NCBI GenBank assembly: GCA_019454185.1
Contig: CP075368.1
Span: 2,831,649-2,895,648, forward strand
Direction: 5' to 3'
Source of the DNA: Phycisphaeraceae bacterium
GTDB taxonomy: Bacteria; Planctomycetota; Phycisphaerae; Phycisphaerales; UBA1924
Length of the DNA stretch: 64,000 bases
Part shown: in pieces, positions 3,297-23,959 of the stretch
How the letters are laid out: every line of letters starts with the position of its first letter
How positions within the stretch are numbered: position 1 is the first letter of the stretch
The notes under the pieces: generated by a model
The model's database searches: none
Told to the model about the DNA's origin: nothing
What the model saw: the letters and a program-made list of their open reading frames with translations, nothing else
Made by a program: the position numbers and the translations under genes

Positions 3297-3383
3297 GGAT
3301 GGAGCATACCACGACGCGCGGATCGAGCGTGATGTTGTCGCCCGTTTCTGCCTCACGTCGAGGCGTCACCCATGGCGTGCGGG

Positions 3384-4928: not shown

Positions 4929-5075
4929 GACCGGAGCATACCACGACTCCGCGGGCAGACTTATGGAGTGTTCGCCTTACGCCGCAGGCAAGAACCGTTC
5001 GACGAGTGGGCGTGGCGCATGAAACCCTGCCCGGTGTGGCAGCCCGCCGGGCGCTTGTCGTTCAACTTGGATGCT

Positions 5076-11701: not shown

Positions 11702-11747
11702 CGCCCGTGAGGGCGAGCGTTACGTTGCGAGTGGCTTCAGCCACTTG
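11702..11747 (-). repeat. Left REP unit (two hairpins) of the RAYT element
   Basis: Two hairpins: CGCCC/GGGCG at 11702-11715 and AGTGGCT-TC-AGCCACT at 11730-11745. The unit lies in inverted orientation to the two right-hand copies. Confidence 0.65.
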
Positions 11748-11860
11748 CTGCGGGTGTCTCTGTTGGCTTGCTTCATTCCCTGGTATCTTCCGCCCTGTGG
11801 GCGGACGGGCGGGCAGCTAGTGCACGGCCGGACATTCGCCGTTAGCCCGGGAGTTTGCTG

Positions 11861-12313
11861 ATGCCACGCGCGTGGACCCAGAACTATTACCATCTGATTT
11901 TCTCGACGCGGCACCGCAAGCCATGGATCACGCCCGATCTGGAGAGCCGTCTCTTTCCGTTCCTCATCGGCATCGCGCGTGATCTTGGATGCCAGATGAT
12001 CGCACTCAACGGGATGCCCGATCATGTACATATGGTGCTTCGGTACCCTTCACATCTGTCACACGCCGACATGGTGAGGCACCTGAAGGGCCGCTCCTCG
12101 CGATGGATCCATGAGGAATTCCCCGCGCTCGCCGATTTCGCGTGGCAGGAGGGATACGGCGGGTTCACGGTGAGCCGATCATCCCTCGACGCCGCGTCCG
12201 AGTATGTCAGGCGACAGAAGGAGCATCACGCACGCATGAGCTTCGAGGATGAGTTCATGGCCATTCTTGAGCGGCACGGCTTGCAGGTCCCGCGCGAAGA
12301 TGCACTCGGGTGA
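11861..12313 (+). CDS. REP-associated tyrosine transposase (RAYT, IS200-like)
   Basis: About 150 residues of the Y1 HUH transposase family. Diagnostic features are YYHLIFSTRHRKPWI near the start, the HUH motif in MPDHVHMVL, and the nucleophile tyrosine in SEYVRRQ near residue 115. The ATG at 11861 is chosen over the TTG six bases upstream, with GGGAG about 8 nt ahead. The gene is bracketed by palindromic REP units (one left, two right), the substrate arrangement expected of RAYTs, which spread REP sequences around the genome. Confidence 0.88.
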   Translation: MPRAWTQNYYHLIFSTRHRKPWITPDLESRLFPFLIGIARDLGCQMIALNGMPDHVHMVLRYPSHLSHADMVRHLKGRSSRWIHEEFPALADFAWQEGYGGFTVSRSSLDAASEYVRRQKEHHARMSFEDEFMAILERHGLQVPREDALG

Positions 12314-12336
12314 GTACGGACCCGACCGCCTTCTTC

Positions 12337-12462
12337 GCCGAGTGGCTGAAGCCACTCGCAACACAGCGTGCGCCCAGGGGGCGCGGACAGAAGTTGAGGA
12401 ACGAAAGCTGTGCATCCATGCCGAGTGGCTGAAGCCACTCGCAACGTGCGCCCTGTCGGGCG
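12337..12462 (+). repeat. Two right-hand REP units
   Basis: Copies at 12337-12384 and 12420-12462. Each starts GCCGAGTGGCTGAAGCCACT followed by CGCAAC, then a second hairpin (GCGCCC/GGGCGC or CGCCC/GGGCG). They are in direct orientation to each other and inverted relative to the unit left of the RAYT gene. Confidence 0.75.
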
Positions 12463-14967: not shown

Positions 14968-15288
14968 ATGCCGACCCGTACCCGCCGTACCGCCCGCAAG
15001 ACGACCGCTCGCAAGAGCCCCGCCAAGCGGACGAAATCGCGCAAGACCACCGCCCGTAAGACGACCGCTCGCAAGAGCCCGGCCCGCAAGACGACGGCCC
15101 GCACGTCTTCCTGGAAGAACTCTTTCAAGAAGACGACCAAGGCCAAGAAGAGCACCGCTCGCAAGAGCGCGAAGAAGAGCACGGCCCGCAAGACGACCGC
15201 TCGCAAGACCACGGCCCGCAAGACCGCGCCCAAGACCTTCTCCTTCAACCGCTCGATCAACACCGGCGCTCGTCGTCGCGCCGCCTGA
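14968..15288 (+). CDS. Histone H1-like lysine-rich DNA-binding protein
   Basis: 106 residues, almost wholly composed of Lys, Arg, Thr, Ala and Ser in repeats such as TARKTTARKSPAK, with no globular part. It matches bacterial H1-like nucleoid proteins (Hc1-like tails) known from planctomycetes, chlamydiae and some proteobacteria. The start at 14968 follows AGGAG by 7 nt; the upstream in-frame ATG at 14854 would add an unrelated sequence. The role is presumably DNA compaction by charge neutralisation. The repeats are near-identical at DNA level, so length variation between strains is expected. Confidence 0.8.
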   Translation: MPTRTRRTARKTTARKSPAKRTKSRKTTARKTTARKSPARKTTARTSSWKNSFKKTTKAKKSTARKSAKKSTARKTTARKTTARKTAPKTFSFNRSINTGARRRAA

Positions 15289-15407
15289 GCCGCACACGAC
15301 TCCGCTCGCCCGCCCACGGATGCGCGGCGCGATGCGAAGAACATGGGTCCAGCCCCCCGCAGGGACGCAACGGCGGCTGATCCGATCTTCACAATCTATC
15401 GCACGAC

Positions 15408-15433
15408 ACGGCCGCGGCACCCCCGCGGCCGTT
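15408..15433 (+). terminator. Intrinsic terminator after the histone-like gene
   Basis: ACGGCCGCGG and CCGCGGCCGT form a perfect 10-bp stem with a 5-nt loop, followed by TTCGTCGTTTA. It separates the histone-like gene from the CRISPR leader. Confidence 0.7.
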
Positions 15434-15547
15434 CGTCGTTTAGGGAGCGGGTGGGACGACGCGGAACTTGACTGGGCAGGGGACTCGGTCAGCGTTTTTG
15501 ATTTTTGCGGCGGCCCTCGCTTGGGACTACGTCCCTTCGCTCGGGCC
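15434..15547 (+). promoter_or_regulatory. CRISPR leader-side region with hairpin at the first repeat
   Basis: This contains TTGACT at 15468-15473, a T-rich stretch (TTTTTGATTTTT, about 15495-15506) and an inverted repeat GGCGGCCC ... GGGCCGCC with an inner GGGAC/GTCCC pair, whose right arm runs into the first three bases of repeat 1 (about 15508-15550). Its position upstream of the plus-strand array makes it the candidate leader. Confidence 0.45.
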
Positions 15548-18500
15548 GCCGTGGTCTGCCGCGAAGGGCCGCTCTGGTACACTAGAGATCAGCGGCGCGC
15601 CAACGATCATGCCGCCGTGGTCTGCCGCGAAGGGCCGCTCTGGTACACTGGGATCACGGTGCGCGTCGCTGGAGGCGATGCCGTGGTCTGCCGCGAAGGG
15701 CCGCTCTGGTACACTTTCGTCGTGTCCGTGATCACGCGCGAGCCGGCCGTGGTCTGCCGCGAAGGGCCGCTCTGGTACACTATGCAGGGGGTGCGGCAGC
15801 GGATCGAGGAGGCCGTGGTCTGCCGCGAAGGGCCGCTCTGGTACACTCGATCGCCAGCAGCGCACCACCCCCGAAGGGCCGTGGTCTGCCGCGAAGGGCC
15901 GCTCTGGTACACTTCCGCTCGGACATGATTCGGAAAGTCGGACGCCGTGGTCTGCCGCGAAGGGCCGCTCTGGTACACTCGGCCCGGTCGTCAACGGGCG
16001 CGTCGAGTGGCCGTGGTCTGCCGCGAAGGGCCGCTCTGGTACACTCAGCAGCGATCACATCTGACGCTACTCCGCGCCGTGGTCTGCCGCGAAGGGCCGC
16101 TCTGGTACACTGCCGAATCCTCGTGTTGACTTCATGCCCCAGCCGTGGTCTGCCGCGAAGGGCCGCTCTGGTACACTGCGTCTGATTCGATGCCCTGCTT
16201 CACGAAAGCCGTGGTCTGCCGCGAAGGGCCGCTCTGGTACACTGCGGCCTCGCGGCGATGCCGCAACAACGGTGCCGTGGTCTGCCGCGAAGGGCCGCTC
16301 TGGTACACTGACGTGCCGCGTGAGTGGCTACGCGCGTTCGCCGTGGTCTGCCGCGAAGGGCCGCTCTGGTACACTACGATCTACAACAAGCGCGAAGAGT
16401 GTACCGCCGTGGTCTGCCGCGAAGGGCCGCTCTGGTACACTGACGTGCCGCGTGAGTGGCTACGCGCGTTCGCCGTGGTCTGCCGCGAAGGGCCGCTCTG
16501 GTACACTTCGTCGGTGCCGGCTTGTCGCCACGCCGCTGCCGTGGTCTGCCGCGAAGGGCCGCTCTGGTACACTAGAGGCCCGAATCGGCGATCGATGATC
16601 GTGGCCGTGGTCTGCCGCGAAGGGCCGCTCTGGTACACTCCTACAGGCACCTACGACGATCCGGGGATCGCCGTGGTCTGCCGCGAAGGGCCGCTCTGGT
16701 ACACTGCGAGTAGTCTTCGCATGTCAGGCCGCGATGCCGTGGTCTGCCGCGAAGGGCCGCTCTGGTACACTTCTCGCCAGGTCCACCAACCGATAGCAGC
16801 GGCCGTGGTCTGCCGCGAAGGGCCGCTCTGGTACACTCGACAAGCCGCACGGCCGCCCCATCTGGCGGCCGTGGTCTGCCGCGAAGGGCCGCTCTGGTAC
16901 ACTTCGAAGCAAATCCTTTTGTTCGCCCAGAAAGCCGTGGTCTGCCGCGAAGGGCCGCTCTGGTACACTTTGCACCGTTGATCGGTTCGTAATAATTTGG
17001 CCGTGGTCTGCCGCGAAGGGCCGCTCTGGTACACTGATGTCCAAGAGATACCCGTGCGACCCGCTGCCGTGGTCTGCCGCGAAGGGCCGCTCTGGTACAC
17101 TTGTCGCCAGCACCCACGATCGTGTACTTCCGCCGTGGTCTGCCGCGAAGGGCCGCTCTGGTACACTGCGTCCTGGCAGGACCGTTGAGTCCAGAACGCC
17201 GTGGTCTGCCGCGAAGGGCCGCTCTGGTACACTGAGTTTGCGCCTGCGCGGCCAAGTGCTTTTGCCGTGGTCTGCCGCGAAGGGCCGCTCTGGTACACTG
17301 CGGAGATGTTCGGGCGGGTGGAAGAAGTGGCCGTGGTCTGCCGCGAAGGGCCGCTCTGGTACACTCCGCTCGCTCGGCGGCGTGTCCGGCGACGAGCCGT
17401 GGTCTGCCGCGAAGGGCCGCTCTGGTACACTTTTCGGCTACGGCGTAGGTGTGGTCGAGAGGCCGTGGTCTGCCGCGAAGGGCCGCTCTGGTACACTCCG
17501 GATCATCGCGGAAGCGCGTGAACGCCCGCCGTGGTCTGCCGCGAAGGGCCGCTCTGGTACACTCATGTTCGCGATGATGGTTTCGGCTCTGTTGCCGTGG
17601 TCTGCCGCGAAGGGCCGCTCTGGTACACTCGTCACGGAGTCATACGGCATCGGGGCAATGCCGTGGTCTGCCGCGAAGGGCCGCTCTGGTACACTGTATG
17701 GATGTCGAACAAGCGAGGCGATCACGCCGTGGTCTGCCGCGAAGGGCCGCTCTGGTACACTGACCCGACACGATGCACTCGCGTTCCCGTCGCCGTGGTC
17801 TGCCGCGAAGGGCCGCTCTGGTACACTTCCGTCAAGGTCGATACCGACGGCAAACTCGCCGTGGTCTGCCGCGAAGGGCCGCTCTGGTACACTAGTTCCG
17901 CAAGGTTGAGCCCCAGCGATGACGCCGTGGTCTGCCGCGAAGGGCCGCTCTGGTACACTGGAAACGCGCCCGGCACGAACCGCGTGGAGGCCGTGGTCTG
18001 CCGCGAAGGGCCGCTCTGGTACACTGTATGTACGGACGGGCGGGGCAGAGTTTGCGCCGTGGTCTGCCGCGAAGGGCCGCTCTGGTACACTCCGCCTGAA
18101 TCGCCACCTGAGCGGCTTTGGGCCGTGGTCTGCCGCGAAGGGCCGCTCTGGTACACTGCCAGCGTCGGACGGAAGGTGATTACGAGCGCCGTGGTCTGCC
18201 GCGAAGGGCCGCTCTGGTACACTGCAGTATGCAGAATGCACGCCGTTGTCGGTGCCGTGGTCTGCCGCGAAGGGCCGCTCTGGTACACTAAACCCGAGGA
18301 TCGAGATTGAGATGCCACCGCCGTGGTCTGCCGCGAAGGGCCGCTCTGGTACACTCGTAGTCGAGAAGGCGGATGAAGGTGGCCAGCCGTGGTCTGCCGC
18401 GAAGGGCCGCTCTGGTACACTGGTAGCGGTTCGCGGTGCTTTGGTGCTGACGCCGTGGTCTGCCGCGAAGGGCCGCTCTGGTACACTGGCATCACTCAGC

Positions 18501-19213
18501 CCCGCGATGGTCTCGGGGCCGTGGTCTGCCGCGAAGGGCCGCTCTGGTACACTCTGCCGGTTTGCAAGCAGGTACGTCCAGTCGCCGTGGTCTGCCGCGA
18601 AGGGCCGCTCTGGTACACTCCCCCGCGTGATCGGCGACGTGCTGAACATGCCGTGGTCTGCCGCGAAGGGCCGCTCTGGTACACTCCATTGCGGCATCGA
18701 CATCATCCCCGAGTTGCCGTGGTCTGCCGCGAAGGGCCGCTCTGGTACACTCCGGGGTGGGTGGAGCCGCAGCCCGCCTGTGCCGTGGTCTGCCGCGAAG
18801 GGCCGCTCTGGTACACTGCGATTGCAGCAACGCCGCGAGCGTCTCGTGCCGTGGTCTGCCGCGAAGGGCCGCTCTGGTACACTCGTGCGCTTGCGTTGCC
18901 GGTGTCCGACCTTGCCGTGGTCTGCCGCGAAGGGCCGCTCTGGTACACTCCCCCGCGTGATCGGCGACGTGCTGAACATGCCGTGGTCTGCCGCGAAGGG
19001 CCGCTCTGGTACACTATGATCGATGTGCAGGCGATGACCGCCATGGCCGTGGTCTGCCGCGAAGGGCCGCTCTGGTACACTCAGGGCGAGCGGCGAGCGT
19101 GGTCATGCGGCGCCGTGGTCTGCCGCGAAGGGCCGCTCTGGTACACTGTGGAGCGTGCCGAGCCCGTCCTGTACGGCGCCGTGGTCTGCCGCGAAGGGCC
19201 GCTCTGGTACACT
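15548..19213 (+). CRISPR. CRISPR array, 56 repeats of 36 bp and 55 spacers of 30 bp
   Basis: The repeat begins GCCGTGGTCTGCCGCG and ends CCGCTCTGGTACACT. Every repeat that I checked sits on an exact 66-bp period from 15548 to the last copy at 19178-19213, and copies look identical, including both terminal ones. Two spacers occur twice: at 16310 and 16442, and at 18620 and 18950. Plus-strand transcription is inferred from pairing with the tracrRNA, whose 3' anti-repeat part matches the 5' part of this strand's repeat, and from the extended -10 motif TGGTACACT at the repeat end. The array converges on the cas2 3' end, 49 bp away. Confidence 0.98.
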
Positions 19214-19262
19214 ACCCTGATCGGAATGTCTTCTGCAAGCAAGACTTACGACAGGGTCACGG

Positions 19263-19658
19263 CTAGAAAAGCATGAGTTGGGGAGGTGGTTCCTCTGCCG
19301 GACCCGCACTTTTGCCGCGGTAGACCTCCATCTTTCCGAACTGGCGATCGGTGATCGCGACGAGCCGGACCTGTCCGTGATCGGGCAGCACACTTCGCAC
19401 TTCTGCCTTGATCCCATCGGCGAACTCCTCGCTCGAGCAATGGCGAGCATACACGGAGAACTGGAGCATCGTGAACCCGCGCAGGAGCAGGTCGCGCCGG
19501 AATCGCGCCGCCCGCTTCTTCTCTGCCTTTGTGACGACGGGAAGGTCGAACATCGCAAAGAGCCACATCGCACGATACCCCGAGAACAGCGGATACTCAT
19601 CGTCTGGCGTGAAGCGCGGTTCAGCATGCTTCGCGCTGCGATTCCGCCTCCTTCTCAC
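19263..19658 (-). CDS. cas2: CRISPR-associated endonuclease Cas2
   Basis: 131 residues. The ferredoxin-like core begins at WLFAMFDLPV, with the conserved Asp at residue 38, and continues through FRRDLLLRGFTMLQFSVYAR; a second half VRLVAITDRQFGKMEVY follows. A basic N-terminal extension of about 30 residues (RRRRNRSAK) precedes the core. Cas2 dimers bridge Cas1 dimers in the spacer-integration complex. The start overlaps the cas1 stop by four bases (ATGA), so cas9-cas1-cas2 is one translationally coupled operon on the minus strand. Confidence 0.95.
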   Translation of the reverse strand: MRRRRNRSAKHAEPRFTPDDEYPLFSGYRAMWLFAMFDLPVVTKAEKKRAARFRRDLLLRGFTMLQFSVYARHCSSEEFADGIKAEVRSVLPDHGQVRLVAITDRQFGKMEVYRGKSAGPAEEPPPQLMLF

Positions 19659-20593
19659 GATCGCACCAGCCCGTCAGGAAAGAACACACGGAGCTTGGAC
19701 ACATCGTCATCGCTACAGAACGCGCGACCGAGAGAGGCCGCGGAGCGTCCGATCCAGTCCATCACCGTTCTGGATTCTCCCTCGTGCGTGAGTCGTTCGT
19801 GGAGCACACCGATGATCTGCTGCTTTGTGTGTGCATCGAGTTCCACGCCCGGTCCGTGCTGACCGACGATCTCGGCGACGGCATCGTCGATCATCACGCG
19901 CCACGGTTCCATGAGATCATCGGCGAGGCAGTACGGGTTTGACCGCCCGTGGTGGCAGACCCCGAGCGAGGGGTGAAGCCCATTGGCGCAGATCGCGCGA
20001 CCGACCGCGGCCCGGACCACGGCGTAGCCGTAGTTCAAGAGACGGTTCTGGTCCGGTGCATCACGCCGGCGCCGAAAGTTCGAATCTCCGAAGAGGCGCG
20101 GCCAGTAGCGTTGTGCGGCGTGCGCTTCGGCGTTCCCGGCATCGCCCGATCGCACCCCTGCCGCGATTGCGAGCAGGCCGCCGTCATCGCCGATCCGAAT
20201 CTGGAGCAGCGATGCCTGGGCCATGATCTTGGCCCGCACGATGGACTGCCAGATCCGCTTCTTTCGTGGCTCCGTCACGGAGGCCTGCGCGATCATCCGC
20301 TCGGTCTGGAGCGTGTTGGCTGAGAGCGGGAGCATCAAGCCGTTGGGGAGCATCGAATCGTCGCAGACAAGCACCGCAGCGCCCTCGGCCATCAGCCCGG
20401 AGAGCACGGATTGCGTGCATGTCACGCGCGCGTTGGCGAGAATCAACGCGGCGATCTCAGCCAGCGGCGTGGAGAGGTCCGGCATCCCTTCGCGCTTGAC
20501 GATGAGTTGGCCGTACCGCACGCTGAGGTACGCCCCATCGTTGGAGAAGTCGAGGATGCGTTCGGCGCCTGAACCCATATGCCGCTCAGTCAT
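19655..20593 (-). CDS. cas1: CRISPR-associated endonuclease Cas1 (type II)
   Basis: 312 residues, the integrase subunit for new spacers. Likely metal-binding residues are E156 (NAEAHAAQRYW), H214 (LGVCHHGRSNPY) and D226 (LADDLMEPW), in the usual type II layout. The start at 20593 overlaps the cas9 3' end by 8 bp; an alternative ATG five codons in (MGSGAERIL) is possible. No cas4 or csn2 follows, which together with the Cas9 size indicates subtype II-C. Confidence 0.95.
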   Translation of the reverse strand: MTERHMGSGAERILDFSNDGAYLSVRYGQLIVKREGMPDLSTPLAEIAALILANARVTCTQSVLSGLMAEGAAVLVCDDSMLPNGLMLPLSANTLQTERMIAQASVTEPRKKRIWQSIVRAKIMAQASLLQIRIGDDGGLLAIAAGVRSGDAGNAEAHAAQRYWPRLFGDSNFRRRRDAPDQNRLLNYGYAVVRAAVGRAICANGLHPSLGVCHHGRSNPYCLADDLMEPWRVMIDDAVAEIVGQHGPGVELDAHTKQQIIGVLHERLTHEGESRTVMDWIGRSAASLGRAFCSDDDVSKLRVFFPDGLVRS

Positions 20594-23500
20594 TGGCTCG
20601 GCGGATCTCGCCGAGATAGGTCACGAGTACTTTGCTAGCAGCGAGCTTGCGCATAGAATCGCCCGAACCCCTGATACGAATCCGCTCGCGTTGCCGCTGC
20701 GGTGATGGTCTTGCATCATGGGTTGGCAGGACCTCGATGTCCCCCTCACTGATGGAGAGGACACGAAAGACGCGACGCGTCGCCGGGCCTCTCGGATCAT
20801 CCATCTCGATGTGCTCGCCCTTCGCGAGCGAGAAGAGGAACCTTCGCCCTTCCCCGCCGTCGCGGCAGACGATCGGCTGTTTCGCCGCCTTGCGGCGGTG
20901 GGCTTCCATGAGCGTGACAGGCGTGTGCTCCCAGCGTGTGCGCCCCTTCTCGTCTGTCACCTCCCACACTTCCGTGTGGTGGTTGCTGCCGAGTTTGACG
21001 TACCGCTCCTGCGATCCCTTCCCGATCCGATCCGGCTTGGCATCGACTTCGACGCGGACACGCCGAAGGGGGACCATGCGCCCGTCGTACCCTCGGACCA
21101 TCGGTGCGTTCTCCGGAACGGCGAAGATCTGCGAGAGTTGCTGCGGTGTCGGATCCGGTCGTCCGAGTTCAGTGAGCTTTGCCCGGATCGCGGCGAGCGC
21201 TCTCTTGTCGACCAGCCGCCCCTCTTCGATATCCTTTGGAGTGAGTTTCTGGAGTTCTTTCCGGACTCGGTGCTTCGCACCAATGGGCTTGCTGTAGATC
21301 GTCGCTTCGTGCAACGCGCCTCGGGCACGCTTCGAGATCTGATTCGAGACGATCACGGATGAGATCAGCCGCTCAACCTGATCGCGGAGTCCGGGCAGCG
21401 GCTCATCCACCGCGTCGAACGCACGTCGGGCGAAGCGGGCGTCCGCGCTCGCCGCGGCACGCTGGAGCAGTTGAACGGCTCGCCCATCGGTAAGCCCGAT
21501 GACGATCGCGTCGATCGCATGATGCCTGTGGTCGTCACGATTCTTATCCGGTGTGTCGCCGAGCAGTCCGGAGAGACCCCAGCCGGTGCGGAGCCACGCG
21601 GTCAGTCCGCCGCTCGTAGCCTGTATGCGTAGATTGCCCTCAAGGTCGCTTCGGCCGCCGTAGAGCAGGGCGAGGTAGTCCGCTGCGAGTTTGGCGATGT
21701 ATCGCGTGTCGCTGAGGTGGCGATTGGTGAACCCCTCGGGAATCTCCTGTGCGAGGAAGCGTTCGAGTTTCGCTCTGCGGGTCCGGAGGTCGCCCTTGAA
21801 TGCACTGACGCGCTCGATGATCTCGCCGTAACGTCCATCGTCGGCGCCATAGGCCTCAAACGGTGTGCGGTTGTGCTTTCTCGCGATGTTCTCCTCGTGG
21901 TAGCAGAGCGTCTTGTTGAGGAAGCTGTCGTCGAGCGAGCGGGATCGCGGCCAGATGTGCTCGATGTGGAACTGGGCACTTGCGCCGAAGAGCGTGCGCC
22001 ACTCGATCTGCCTGCCTGTGTATGGGCAGCGCCAGCCGCATTCGTCCGCGAGAAGCACCTTCTCGATGTCTTCGCGCGATGGGCGGCTGATATGGGCCTC
22101 TTTCTCGATCTGTTTGGCGATGCCATCGCGATGCTTGGCGCGTGCGGTGTTCGTCCTGTGGATCTGTTCGCGACGATGGGCGCCGTGCTTGAGCTCTCGC
22201 GCGAGCTCGATCCTGATTCGAGCCGGCTTGCCGTGCTCTCGTACCAGTGCGTTCACGAGCTTGCGGAGTTCCGTGAGCGCGCGGATGACGCCAGGATTGC
22301 GCAGGTCCTCGAACGCGTCGGTGACCGGAGGCAGTGAGTCCGCAGATTCAACAGCCCTGAATGACTCTGGGAACTCTCGCTTTCGCGCTTCGGCATACGT
22401 GACACCCTCGCGCATGTGTGGCATCAGACGGGCGATGGCCTTGAGGGAGAGAGATGCGTAACCCTCTTCGAGCTCGATCGCACTCAGTGCCGCGGCCTGC
22501 TCCTGCGAGAATCCGTAGTGCCGGGCCATGCGCCTCTGGCATGCTTCCGGCGTACGGAGTGATCGAAGGTCGTGGACAAGCGCGTCCCGAGTCTCTTCAG
22601 GCAAGGAATCGAAGCCCTCGCCGATCACGTCGCGGAGCTTGGCATCAGTGCGGTTGCCGATGATCTCTTTCTCGCCATCGTCTTCGATATTGAACCTGCT
22701 TCGCTTGCCGAGAGCGAGGGCCTTCTTCGCCTGTGTGGCCTTCGTGTCACCGGCCCGCTCAAGAATCGTGATGAGAGCGCGACGCTCATCTTGCGTGAGC
22801 GACCGCGCGGGAGCATCGTTCTCTGATACTTCGACGTTGTTTACGGCCTGAAGGATGCGAAATGATTGGAAATCACGAGACGCGATCGGGGCGCGACGCT
22901 CCGTCGGAATCAGACTGCACCTGCCGATCGTGTGCTTCTGGCTCTTGAGGGGCCTTTGCCAGAACAACGCCCGGCGGATCTCCTTGCGTGCATCCTCCGA
23001 AAGTCCGAGATGCGACTGCTGTTTCTGCCAGATCGCATCAAACTCCTGCTCGTACATCTCGCGACCGGTCCAGCGATGCCGGATCCTCACCTCGTCTGGC
23101 GTCAGAGATGCGAGGTAGGCGCCGAGCGTGGGGGGATCGTGAGCCGCGATCTTGATGGCGAGGTCCCCGATGGCGGCCTTCACCTTGCTCTTCTCATCTG
23201 CTTTCGCTCGGGCATCGGCACGCCGGTTCGACTTGAATCCACGACGCTGGCCGAGTTGGTAGATGGCGCGTCCGAAGTCGAGCCGATCTATCTCACGGAT
23301 CGCTGCGGCAGCGCGGATGCGGTATGTCCACCGCTGTTGATCATCATGAGTACCGACCCATCGCGGCATGATCTGTCGGTCGAGATTGCCGAGAAAGCGG
23401 CATACATCATCGGCCGTACGGAGTTCGGTGTCGGGCTGCGGGAGCAAGCCGTGCCTGACCAGTGCCTGTATCAGTGCTCGCTTGCGTCGCCACCGTCGCC

Positions 23501-23732
23501 AGGCCTGCCTGCGTTGCTGTCGAGCGGTACGCCTCGCGGTGTTGCGTGGCTGATCCGCTCCCCGAAGCCGATCGAGGTCGGTCCCGTCGGTTCCTGGCTC
23601 AAAGAGATGGGAGCCCGTCCTCACGACCTGCTTCGGCACGCCGGTCGAGTCGAGACCGACAACAGACCAACCGATCGACGCAACCCCCAAGTCGATGCCG
23701 AGGACCCATAAGCTGTCCTTGTACCCGTTCAT
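20586..23732 (-). CDS. cas9: CRISPR-associated endonuclease Cas9, subtype II-C
   Basis: 1048 residues, in the compact II-C range. Domains in order: RuvC-I (VLGIDLGVASIGW, D14), an Arg-rich bridge helix (ARRTARQQRRQAWRRWRRKR, about residues 65-85), a recognition lobe, RuvC-II (RIRIELARELK, E near 509), HNH (HIEHIWPRSRSLDDSFLNK, His near 592, and the KHN following), RuvC-III (HHAIDAIVIGL, near 738-745) and a C-terminal PAM-interacting region. All nuclease residues are present, so it should be active. The start MNGYKD at 23732 is preferred over an ATG 12 codons upstream because GGGAGGA precedes it by 5-7 nt and that upstream segment overlaps the tracrRNA promoter. Confidence 0.97.
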   Translation of the reverse strand: MNGYKDSLWVLGIDLGVASIGWSVVGLDSTGVPKQVVRTGSHLFEPGTDGTDLDRLRGADQPRNTARRTARQQRRQAWRRWRRKRALIQALVRHGLLPQPDTELRTADDVCRFLGNLDRQIMPRWVGTHDDQQRWTYRIRAAAAIREIDRLDFGRAIYQLGQRRGFKSNRRADARAKADEKSKVKAAIGDLAIKIAAHDPPTLGAYLASLTPDEVRIRHRWTGREMYEQEFDAIWQKQQSHLGLSEDARKEIRRALFWQRPLKSQKHTIGRCSLIPTERRAPIASRDFQSFRILQAVNNVEVSENDAPARSLTQDERRALITILERAGDTKATQAKKALALGKRSRFNIEDDGEKEIIGNRTDAKLRDVIGEGFDSLPEETRDALVHDLRSLRTPEACQRRMARHYGFSQEQAAALSAIELEEGYASLSLKAIARLMPHMREGVTYAEARKREFPESFRAVESADSLPPVTDAFEDLRNPGVIRALTELRKLVNALVREHGKPARIRIELARELKHGAHRREQIHRTNTARAKHRDGIAKQIEKEAHISRPSREDIEKVLLADECGWRCPYTGRQIEWRTLFGASAQFHIEHIWPRSRSLDDSFLNKTLCYHEENIARKHNRTPFEAYGADDGRYGEIIERVSAFKGDLRTRRAKLERFLAQEIPEGFTNRHLSDTRYIAKLAADYLALLYGGRSDLEGNLRIQATSGGLTAWLRTGWGLSGLLGDTPDKNRDDHRHHAIDAIVIGLTDGRAVQLLQRAAASADARFARRAFDAVDEPLPGLRDQVERLISSVIVSNQISKRARGALHEATIYSKPIGAKHRVRKELQKLTPKDIEEGRLVDKRALAAIRAKLTELGRPDPTPQQLSQIFAVPENAPMVRGYDGRMVPLRRVRVEVDAKPDRIGKGSQERYVKLGSNHHTEVWEVTDEKGRTRWEHTPVTLMEAHRRKAAKQPIVCRDGGEGRRFLFSLAKGEHIEMDDPRGPATRRVFRVLSISEGDIEVLPTHDARPSPQRQRERIRIRGSGDSMRKLAASKVLVTYLGEIRRAND

Positions 23733-23745
23733 GCGTTCCTCCCGC

Positions 23746-23775
23746 TTGACTGCGACACAGCGCATCAACTAATAT
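23746..23775 (+). promoter_or_regulatory. tracrRNA promoter
   Basis: TTGACT (23746-23751), an 18-bp spacer, then TAATAT (23770-23775), reading rightward. Transcription would start about 23782, exactly at the first base of the anti-repeat. It lies immediately upstream of the cas9 ribosome-binding site on the opposite strand. Confidence 0.7.
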
Positions 23776-23784
23776 AGCAGTAGT

Positions 23785-23801
23785 GTACCAGAGCGGCCCT
23801 T
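23785..23801 (-). promoter_or_regulatory. Repeat-derived extended -10 facing cas9
   Basis: Read on the minus strand, the anti-repeat is a partial CRISPR repeat ending CTCTGGTACACT, the same extended -10 found in the array repeats. It points into cas9, and TATATT lies 6 nt further on as a second candidate -10. Either could drive the cas9-cas1-cas2 operon. Confidence 0.45.
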
Positions 23802-23856
23802 CCGTCTTATCACGGTAAGGAAATCCGCGCGGGGCAAGGTCTGCGGGCCTCCCACG

Positions 23857-23880
23857 AACGCCCATCAATGGGCGTTTCTT
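23857..23880 (+). terminator. Intrinsic terminator of tracrRNA
   Basis: AACGCCCAT and ATGGGCGTT form a 9-bp stem with a minimal loop, followed by TTTCTTATT. In II-C guides the last hairpin also serves as the 3' tail recognised by Cas9. Confidence 0.8.
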
Positions 23881-23959
23881 ATTGGCGATGTCTCTGGAGC
23901 ATTCAGGACGAGACACCACTCGCTCACGCTCGTGGTGCCCCAGTGCCTCCGTCGCTTCC

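Follow-up and report, generated by a model that had tools for sequence, protein, structure and literature searches.

The repeat end and the type II-C locus

Are the guide RNAs of a CRISPR array cut from one long transcript, or can each repeat carry the promoter that starts a separate crRNA in the adjoining spacer? The question is raised by a 64,000-nucleotide stretch of planctomycete DNA (the window), in which a long array lies next to cas2, cas1 and cas9 (Table 1). The repeat, GCCGTGGTCTGCCGCGAAGGGCCGCTCTGGTACACT, is maintained with 0 mismatches among all 56 copies and a period of exactly 66, and, as a first-pass annotation of this DNA had reported, each of the 56 terminates in TGGTACACT. The whole window has 57 occurrences of this box where 0.07 would be expected, 56 of them repeat ends and one on the minus strand; the 56 copies were counted as one event and not as 56. 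The same box had been described before two genes, at 3303-3311 and 4935-4943. Boxes are present at both places, on the minus strand and 6 nt before a start codon, but both read TGGTATGCT.

Table 1. Coordinates of the array, its flanks, the cas genes and the tracrRNA locus within the window
Feature	Position	Strand	Details
Terminator-like stem and T run	15468..15505	+	One found, 0.3 expected
Strong hairpin	15507..15552	+	Directly 5' of the first repeat and into it; from folding
CRISPR array	15548..19213	+	56 identical 36-nt repeats, 55 spacers of 30 nt
TGGTACACT of first repeat	15575..15583	+	-10 hexamer TACACT at 15578-15583; recurs each 66 nt to 19205-19213
Conserved 3' flank, last repeat to cas2 stop	19214..19262	.	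Probable acquisition leader, CG.AA ... GG..TT
cas2	19263..19658	-	TIGR01573
cas1, type II	19655..20593	-	TIGR03639
cas9	20586..23732	-	1048 aa; TIGR01865; RuvC and HNH domains
tracrRNA promoter	23746..23775	+	TTGACT-N18-TAATAT; similar architecture in 44/45 loci
Predicted tracrRNA	23782..23885	+	Anti-repeat AGTGTACCAGAGCGGCCCTTC at 23782-23802; lower-stem partner CACGG; terminator AACGCCCATCAATGGGCGTTTCTTATT at 23857-23885
Mirror copy of TGGTACACT within anti-repeat	23782..23790	-	Faces cas9; relatives do not keep it as a -10

Together these features make up a complete type II-C system, cas9-cas1-cas2, whose array converges with the cas genes. Cas9 scores 610 bits against TIGR01865 (cut-off 100) with matches to HNH_4 and RuvC_III, and its length, with both nuclease domains, fits the type II-C size of about 1,000-1,100 aa. 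The three cas genes are contiguous in an operon that has neither csn2 nor cas4, and the genes immediately past cas9 are amidohydrolases. The array sits downstream of cas2 and, as judged from tracrRNA pairing, its transcription is directed towards cas2. The tracrRNA has the anti-repeat, the promoter of its own and the terminator by which the type II-C tracrRNA is recognized, and the arrangement of cas genes, array and tracrRNA is the standard one for type II-C (PMC4607530).

The tracrRNA gene is on the plus strand, divergent from cas9. Over the first 21 nt the tracrRNA is perfectly complementary to the 3'-terminal 21 nt of the repeat, and the lower stem forms with the first bases of the repeat (-60.1 kcal/mol). 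This fixes the array in the left-to-right direction, in which it converges with the cas genes. The box had been said to be oriented in agreement with the tracrRNA, and the promoter, the anti-repeat starting at 23782 and the terminator confirm that it is. The reverse orientation of the array was considered and rejected, as it leaves the tracrRNA without lower stem, tail and terminator and gives a duplex of -46.4 versus -60.1 kcal/mol. Of 45 loci, 44 have a tracrRNA promoter that scored as good, and its -10 usually precedes the anti-repeat by 6-7 nt (34/44). Read towards cas9 on the minus strand (23772-23790), the anti-repeat region presents two boxes of the form TGnTAnnnT, TGGTACACT and then TGCTATATT, at a distance of about 40-50 nt from the cas9 start; divergent promoters overlap in this region, one for the tracrRNA and perhaps one for cas9. 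As a general cas9 promoter the mirror box of the anti-repeat is unsupported, its final T being missing in 10 of 45 loci.

Promoter usage of the host

Promoter usage was examined in the window together with 1.6 Mb from elsewhere in its genome (1.66 Mb), which gave 637 gaps between co-directional genes; the gene calls and starts come from a simple codon-usage script, not from a genome annotation. A first hexamer statistic, obtained with a crude gene caller, was weak and is superseded by the better caller and additional sequence. In the 637 tandem upstream gaps, TACACT ranks first among the 4096 hexamers for over-representation, with 20 forward and 3 reverse occurrences against 3.8 expected, and the longer form TGNTA[CT]NNT likewise shows enrichment and a preferred orientation, with 29 forward and 3 reverse occurrences against 8.9 expected. 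Furthermore, a TANNNT box ends 5-8 nt ahead of the start codon in approximately 107 of 1293 genes, compared to 19.9 expected and with a sharp mode at 6 nt, which suggests that leaderless mRNAs are widespread in this planctomycete. Among the boxes of these apparently leaderless genes, the commonest hexamer is again TACACT (11). The box that closes each repeat matches the -10 preferred by the host sigma factor. The housekeeping sigma factor RpoD also retains RIPVHMIET of region 3.0, the segment that reads the TG of extended -10 promoters.

The distance between -10 and start, calibrated independently on the leaderless genes and on the tracrRNA promoters of the class, indicates a start approximately 7 nt after the box, which would place the crRNA start at spacer base 7 and leave a guide of about 24 nt. 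The guide length of 23-24 nt proposed earlier is thus supported, as a prediction, by the promoter geometry of the host. Among 1,148 spacers we saw no purine preference at spacer bases 7-8, which counts against the promoter reading.

Conservation of the repeat end in relatives

Searching for Cas9 in 397 genomes of the host class and in one genome collection yielded 46 arrays. These contain 42 distinct repeats, of which one is gammaproteobacterial and the other 41 belong to the class of the host. The closest relative carries the window's own repeat and is 95% identical, and none of its 11 cas2-side spacers is shared with the window array. All 42 distinct type II repeats end in TA-N3-T, in the form of TACACT, TACAAT or TATAAT, and mean information is 1.84 bits at repeat positions 31-36 compared to 0.89 bits at positions 7-30. 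The TG at positions 28-29, which the window's repeat has, is found in only 5 of the 42, and TG accompanies only 7 of the 107 leaderless host promoters. The core promoter element is therefore general whereas its extended part is not, and the emphasis that the first-pass annotation placed on the TG is unsupported, although TGNTA[CT]NNT is enriched over all the host gaps. The larger Cas9s of the class, intended as a negative control from other type II subtypes, also had repeats ending in TA-N3-T, and the negative control was therefore drawn from the II-A and II-B repeats published in PMC4607530.

Most relatives additionally have TTG at repeat positions 9-11 (33/42), which as a -35 lies 16 nt from the -10. 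The window's repeat has CTGCCG at the position where these relatives have TTGnnn, and its promoter may consequently be weak. A trade-off between a -35 TTG and the TG of an extended -10 was considered, but counts of 30/3/2/7 give no clear pattern.

Seven arrays have a degenerate first repeat. In these, 89% of positions 25-36 are kept versus 26% of positions 1-12, and, in this small sample, TA-N3-T is intact in six of seven. A first repeat that lacks the handle but retains the -10 is what a promoter in the repeat would lead one to expect. Among 364 arrays, Feussner et al. (2025) observed first repeats mutated with the same bias, which they interpreted as a way to disable the extraneous crRNA (PMC12080349).

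Flanks of the array

No recognizable sigma-70-like promoter was found in a search of 15280-15600, and a TTGAC-type promoter occurs within 200 nt upstream in only one of 31 arrays of relatives. What does precede the first repeat is a terminator-like stem followed by a hairpin (Table 1), the latter with a centroid of -33.1 kcal/mol for a 94-nt stretch and a z of only -1.9. This hairpin would cover the would-be guide of an extraneous crRNA, and stem and hairpin each correspond to a strategy that PMC12080349 describes for avoiding such a crRNA. With no recognizable promoter upstream, and with stem and hairpin before the first repeat, the repeats themselves are the likeliest source of transcription.

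The 3' flank contains a conserved 45-nt element, with a mean of 0.45 bits per position across the 3' flanks of 40 relatives compared to 0.04 on the 5' flank. Leader and growing end are therefore probably located on the 3' side, as has been reported for type II-C (PMC12638026, PMC12080349). In seven relatives (L036, L044, L046, L050, L070, L077 and L083) the flank element is a long near-perfect palindrome centered approximately 22-23 nt from the array, and the palindromes differ in arm sequence.

A probable promoter in each repeat and the alternatives

From the observed sequence, orientation and conservation of the box, the -10 preference of the host and the lack of a recognizable sigma-70 promoter upstream, we infer initiation at the repeats, and consider it likely (a probability of roughly 0.85) that the TACACT repeat end serves as the -10 of a housekeeping-sigma promoter that starts a separate crRNA in each spacer, with the 3' end made by tracrRNA and RNase III. 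RNA polymerase would start about 7 nt downstream of these last six repeat bases. The start would then fall on spacer base 7 (about 6-8), each spacer would have its own promoter, and each crRNA would begin with a guide of about 24 nt and need no 5' processing. Because the repeat-end hexamer is the start signal most used by the host, transcription of each guide RNA probably begins independently of the others. New spacers would enter at the 3', cas2-side end beside the conserved leader, and with a promoter in each repeat this polarity of growth would cost nothing in expression, which helps to explain how 3'-growing arrays can be expressed without a leader promoter.

The host RNase III gene is present and intact. 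In N. meningitidis, RNase III is reportedly dispensable for the type II-C system. The earlier proposal that crRNAs arise here without RNase III is nevertheless unsupported, given the intact gene and the pairing of repeat and tracrRNA over 21 consecutive nt, and independence from RNase III is not a property that can be read from sequence. In C. jejuni, which has the same layout, RNase III still makes the crRNA 3' end (PMC3656092), and the 3' end in the planctomycete would probably arise likewise, from tracrRNA pairing and RNase III cleavage.

The same intact gene and perfect pairing are what one would expect if the array were transcribed as one precursor from an upstream promoter and processed only by tracrRNA and RNase III, with the repeat end kept for pairing to the tracrRNA 5' end. 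Repeat position 35 co-varies with its tracrRNA partner, in keeping with such a role. Position 36, however, is T in 42 of 42 repeats even though the tracrRNA has a base other than A opposite it in 10 of 45 loci. Pairing alone is thus an insufficient explanation, and a precursor would have to start without a recognizable promoter at 15280-15600, pass a terminator-like stem and hairpin, and do so in a group in which 30 of 31 relatives lack a TTGAC-type promoter upstream. We regard this explanation as very unlikely. That the repeat fits TGnTAnnnT by coincidence deserves almost no weight: one repeat sequence is indeed one event, and most relatives lack the TG, but TGNTANNNT arises at a given position of dinucleotide-shuffled upstream DNA at a rate of only about 1.8e-4, and the TA-N3-T at the end of all 42 distinct repeats already contradicts chance.

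Conservation of the 3' repeat end is not specific to a promoter, since this end is also the leader-side integration end and pairs with the tracrRNA. It could be conserved for recognition by Cas1-Cas2 at the leader-repeat junction, with the promoter match a by-product; the 3' flank is conserved and leader-like whereas the 5' flank is not, and G1 and T36 are both invariant among the 42 distinct repeats, as integration sites should be. This is nonetheless unlikely, because the conserved letters are those that a -10 needs, the hexamer is the host's favorite -10, TA-N3-T persists in six of seven degenerate first repeats, where integration has ceased, and no alternative promoter for the array was found. 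The promoter in each repeat and these other roles could also coincide. At somewhat less than even odds, the TACA(C/A)T end has a triple use as the host -10 for each crRNA, the pairing site of the tracrRNA 5' end and the leader-side integration site of Cas1-Cas2, in which case each newly acquired spacer would automatically come with its own promoter, and the host favors the same -10 hexamer.

Relation to known systems

The locus belongs to an already known group, and its place among type II-C systems with repeat promoters is well supported by its sequence features. Direct transcript evidence for this layout comes from C. jejuni (Dugar et al. 2013, PMC3656092), which shares with the planctomycete the genes cas9-cas1-cas2, a 36-nt repeat with a terminal -10 box (GGTAAAAT in C. 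jejuni), a tracrRNA that covers most of the repeat and a start inside the spacer, mapped there and predicted here. The C. jejuni repeat is AT-rich and of unrelated sequence, whereas that of the planctomycete is GC-rich. In C. jejuni the start was mapped at spacer base 5 and RNase III was shown to act on the transcripts; the planctomycete start, at spacer base 7, is a prediction. N. meningitidis II-C (Zhang et al. 2013, cited in PMC12638026 and PMC4607530) also has a 36-nt repeat ending in TGnTAnnnT, of different sequence, and combines 3'-end acquisition with promoters in the repeats, as proposed here.

Pearson et al. (2015), whose survey included Planctomycetes, reported that type II-C repeats terminate in a sigma-70 -10 box (PMC4607530), and the layout is described there and in Feussner et al. 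(2025, PMC12080349) for II-C generally. The probable repeat promoters of this planctomycete, put forward earlier as bringing processing-independent crRNA biogenesis into a planctomycete, are therefore not of a new kind. II-C at large shares with this locus the 3' -10 box (gnTAnaaT), the antisense convergent array, the degenerate first repeat and the upstream terminators and hairpins; beyond them, the host's own -10 preference and -10-to-start spacing were tested for this genome. Our comparison extends the layout of a promoter in every repeat to GC-rich repeats across the whole planctomycete class, sets it beside host promoter usage and distinguishes the conserved part, the -10 hexamer, from the non-conserved TG.

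Additional observations

Two pairs of spacers in the array are identical, namely 12 and 14 (16310-16339, 16442-16471) and 47 and 52 (18620-18649, 18950-18979). Just 5' of the array, at 14968-15288, we identified by eye a Lys/Arg-rich repeat protein resembling histone H1, and also by eye, a small ORF at 11855-12313 that resembles REP-associated transposases and is flanked by copies of the palindrome GAGTGGCTGAAGCCACTC (region 11720-12450). Elsewhere in the same genome (L103:328-4184, about G000:C1:140328-144184), approximately 55 copies of the conserved 20-nt unit GTGTCCATCGATCAGAGCCG lie 70-72 nt apart, a spacing that is CRISPR-like, yet with a period that varies.
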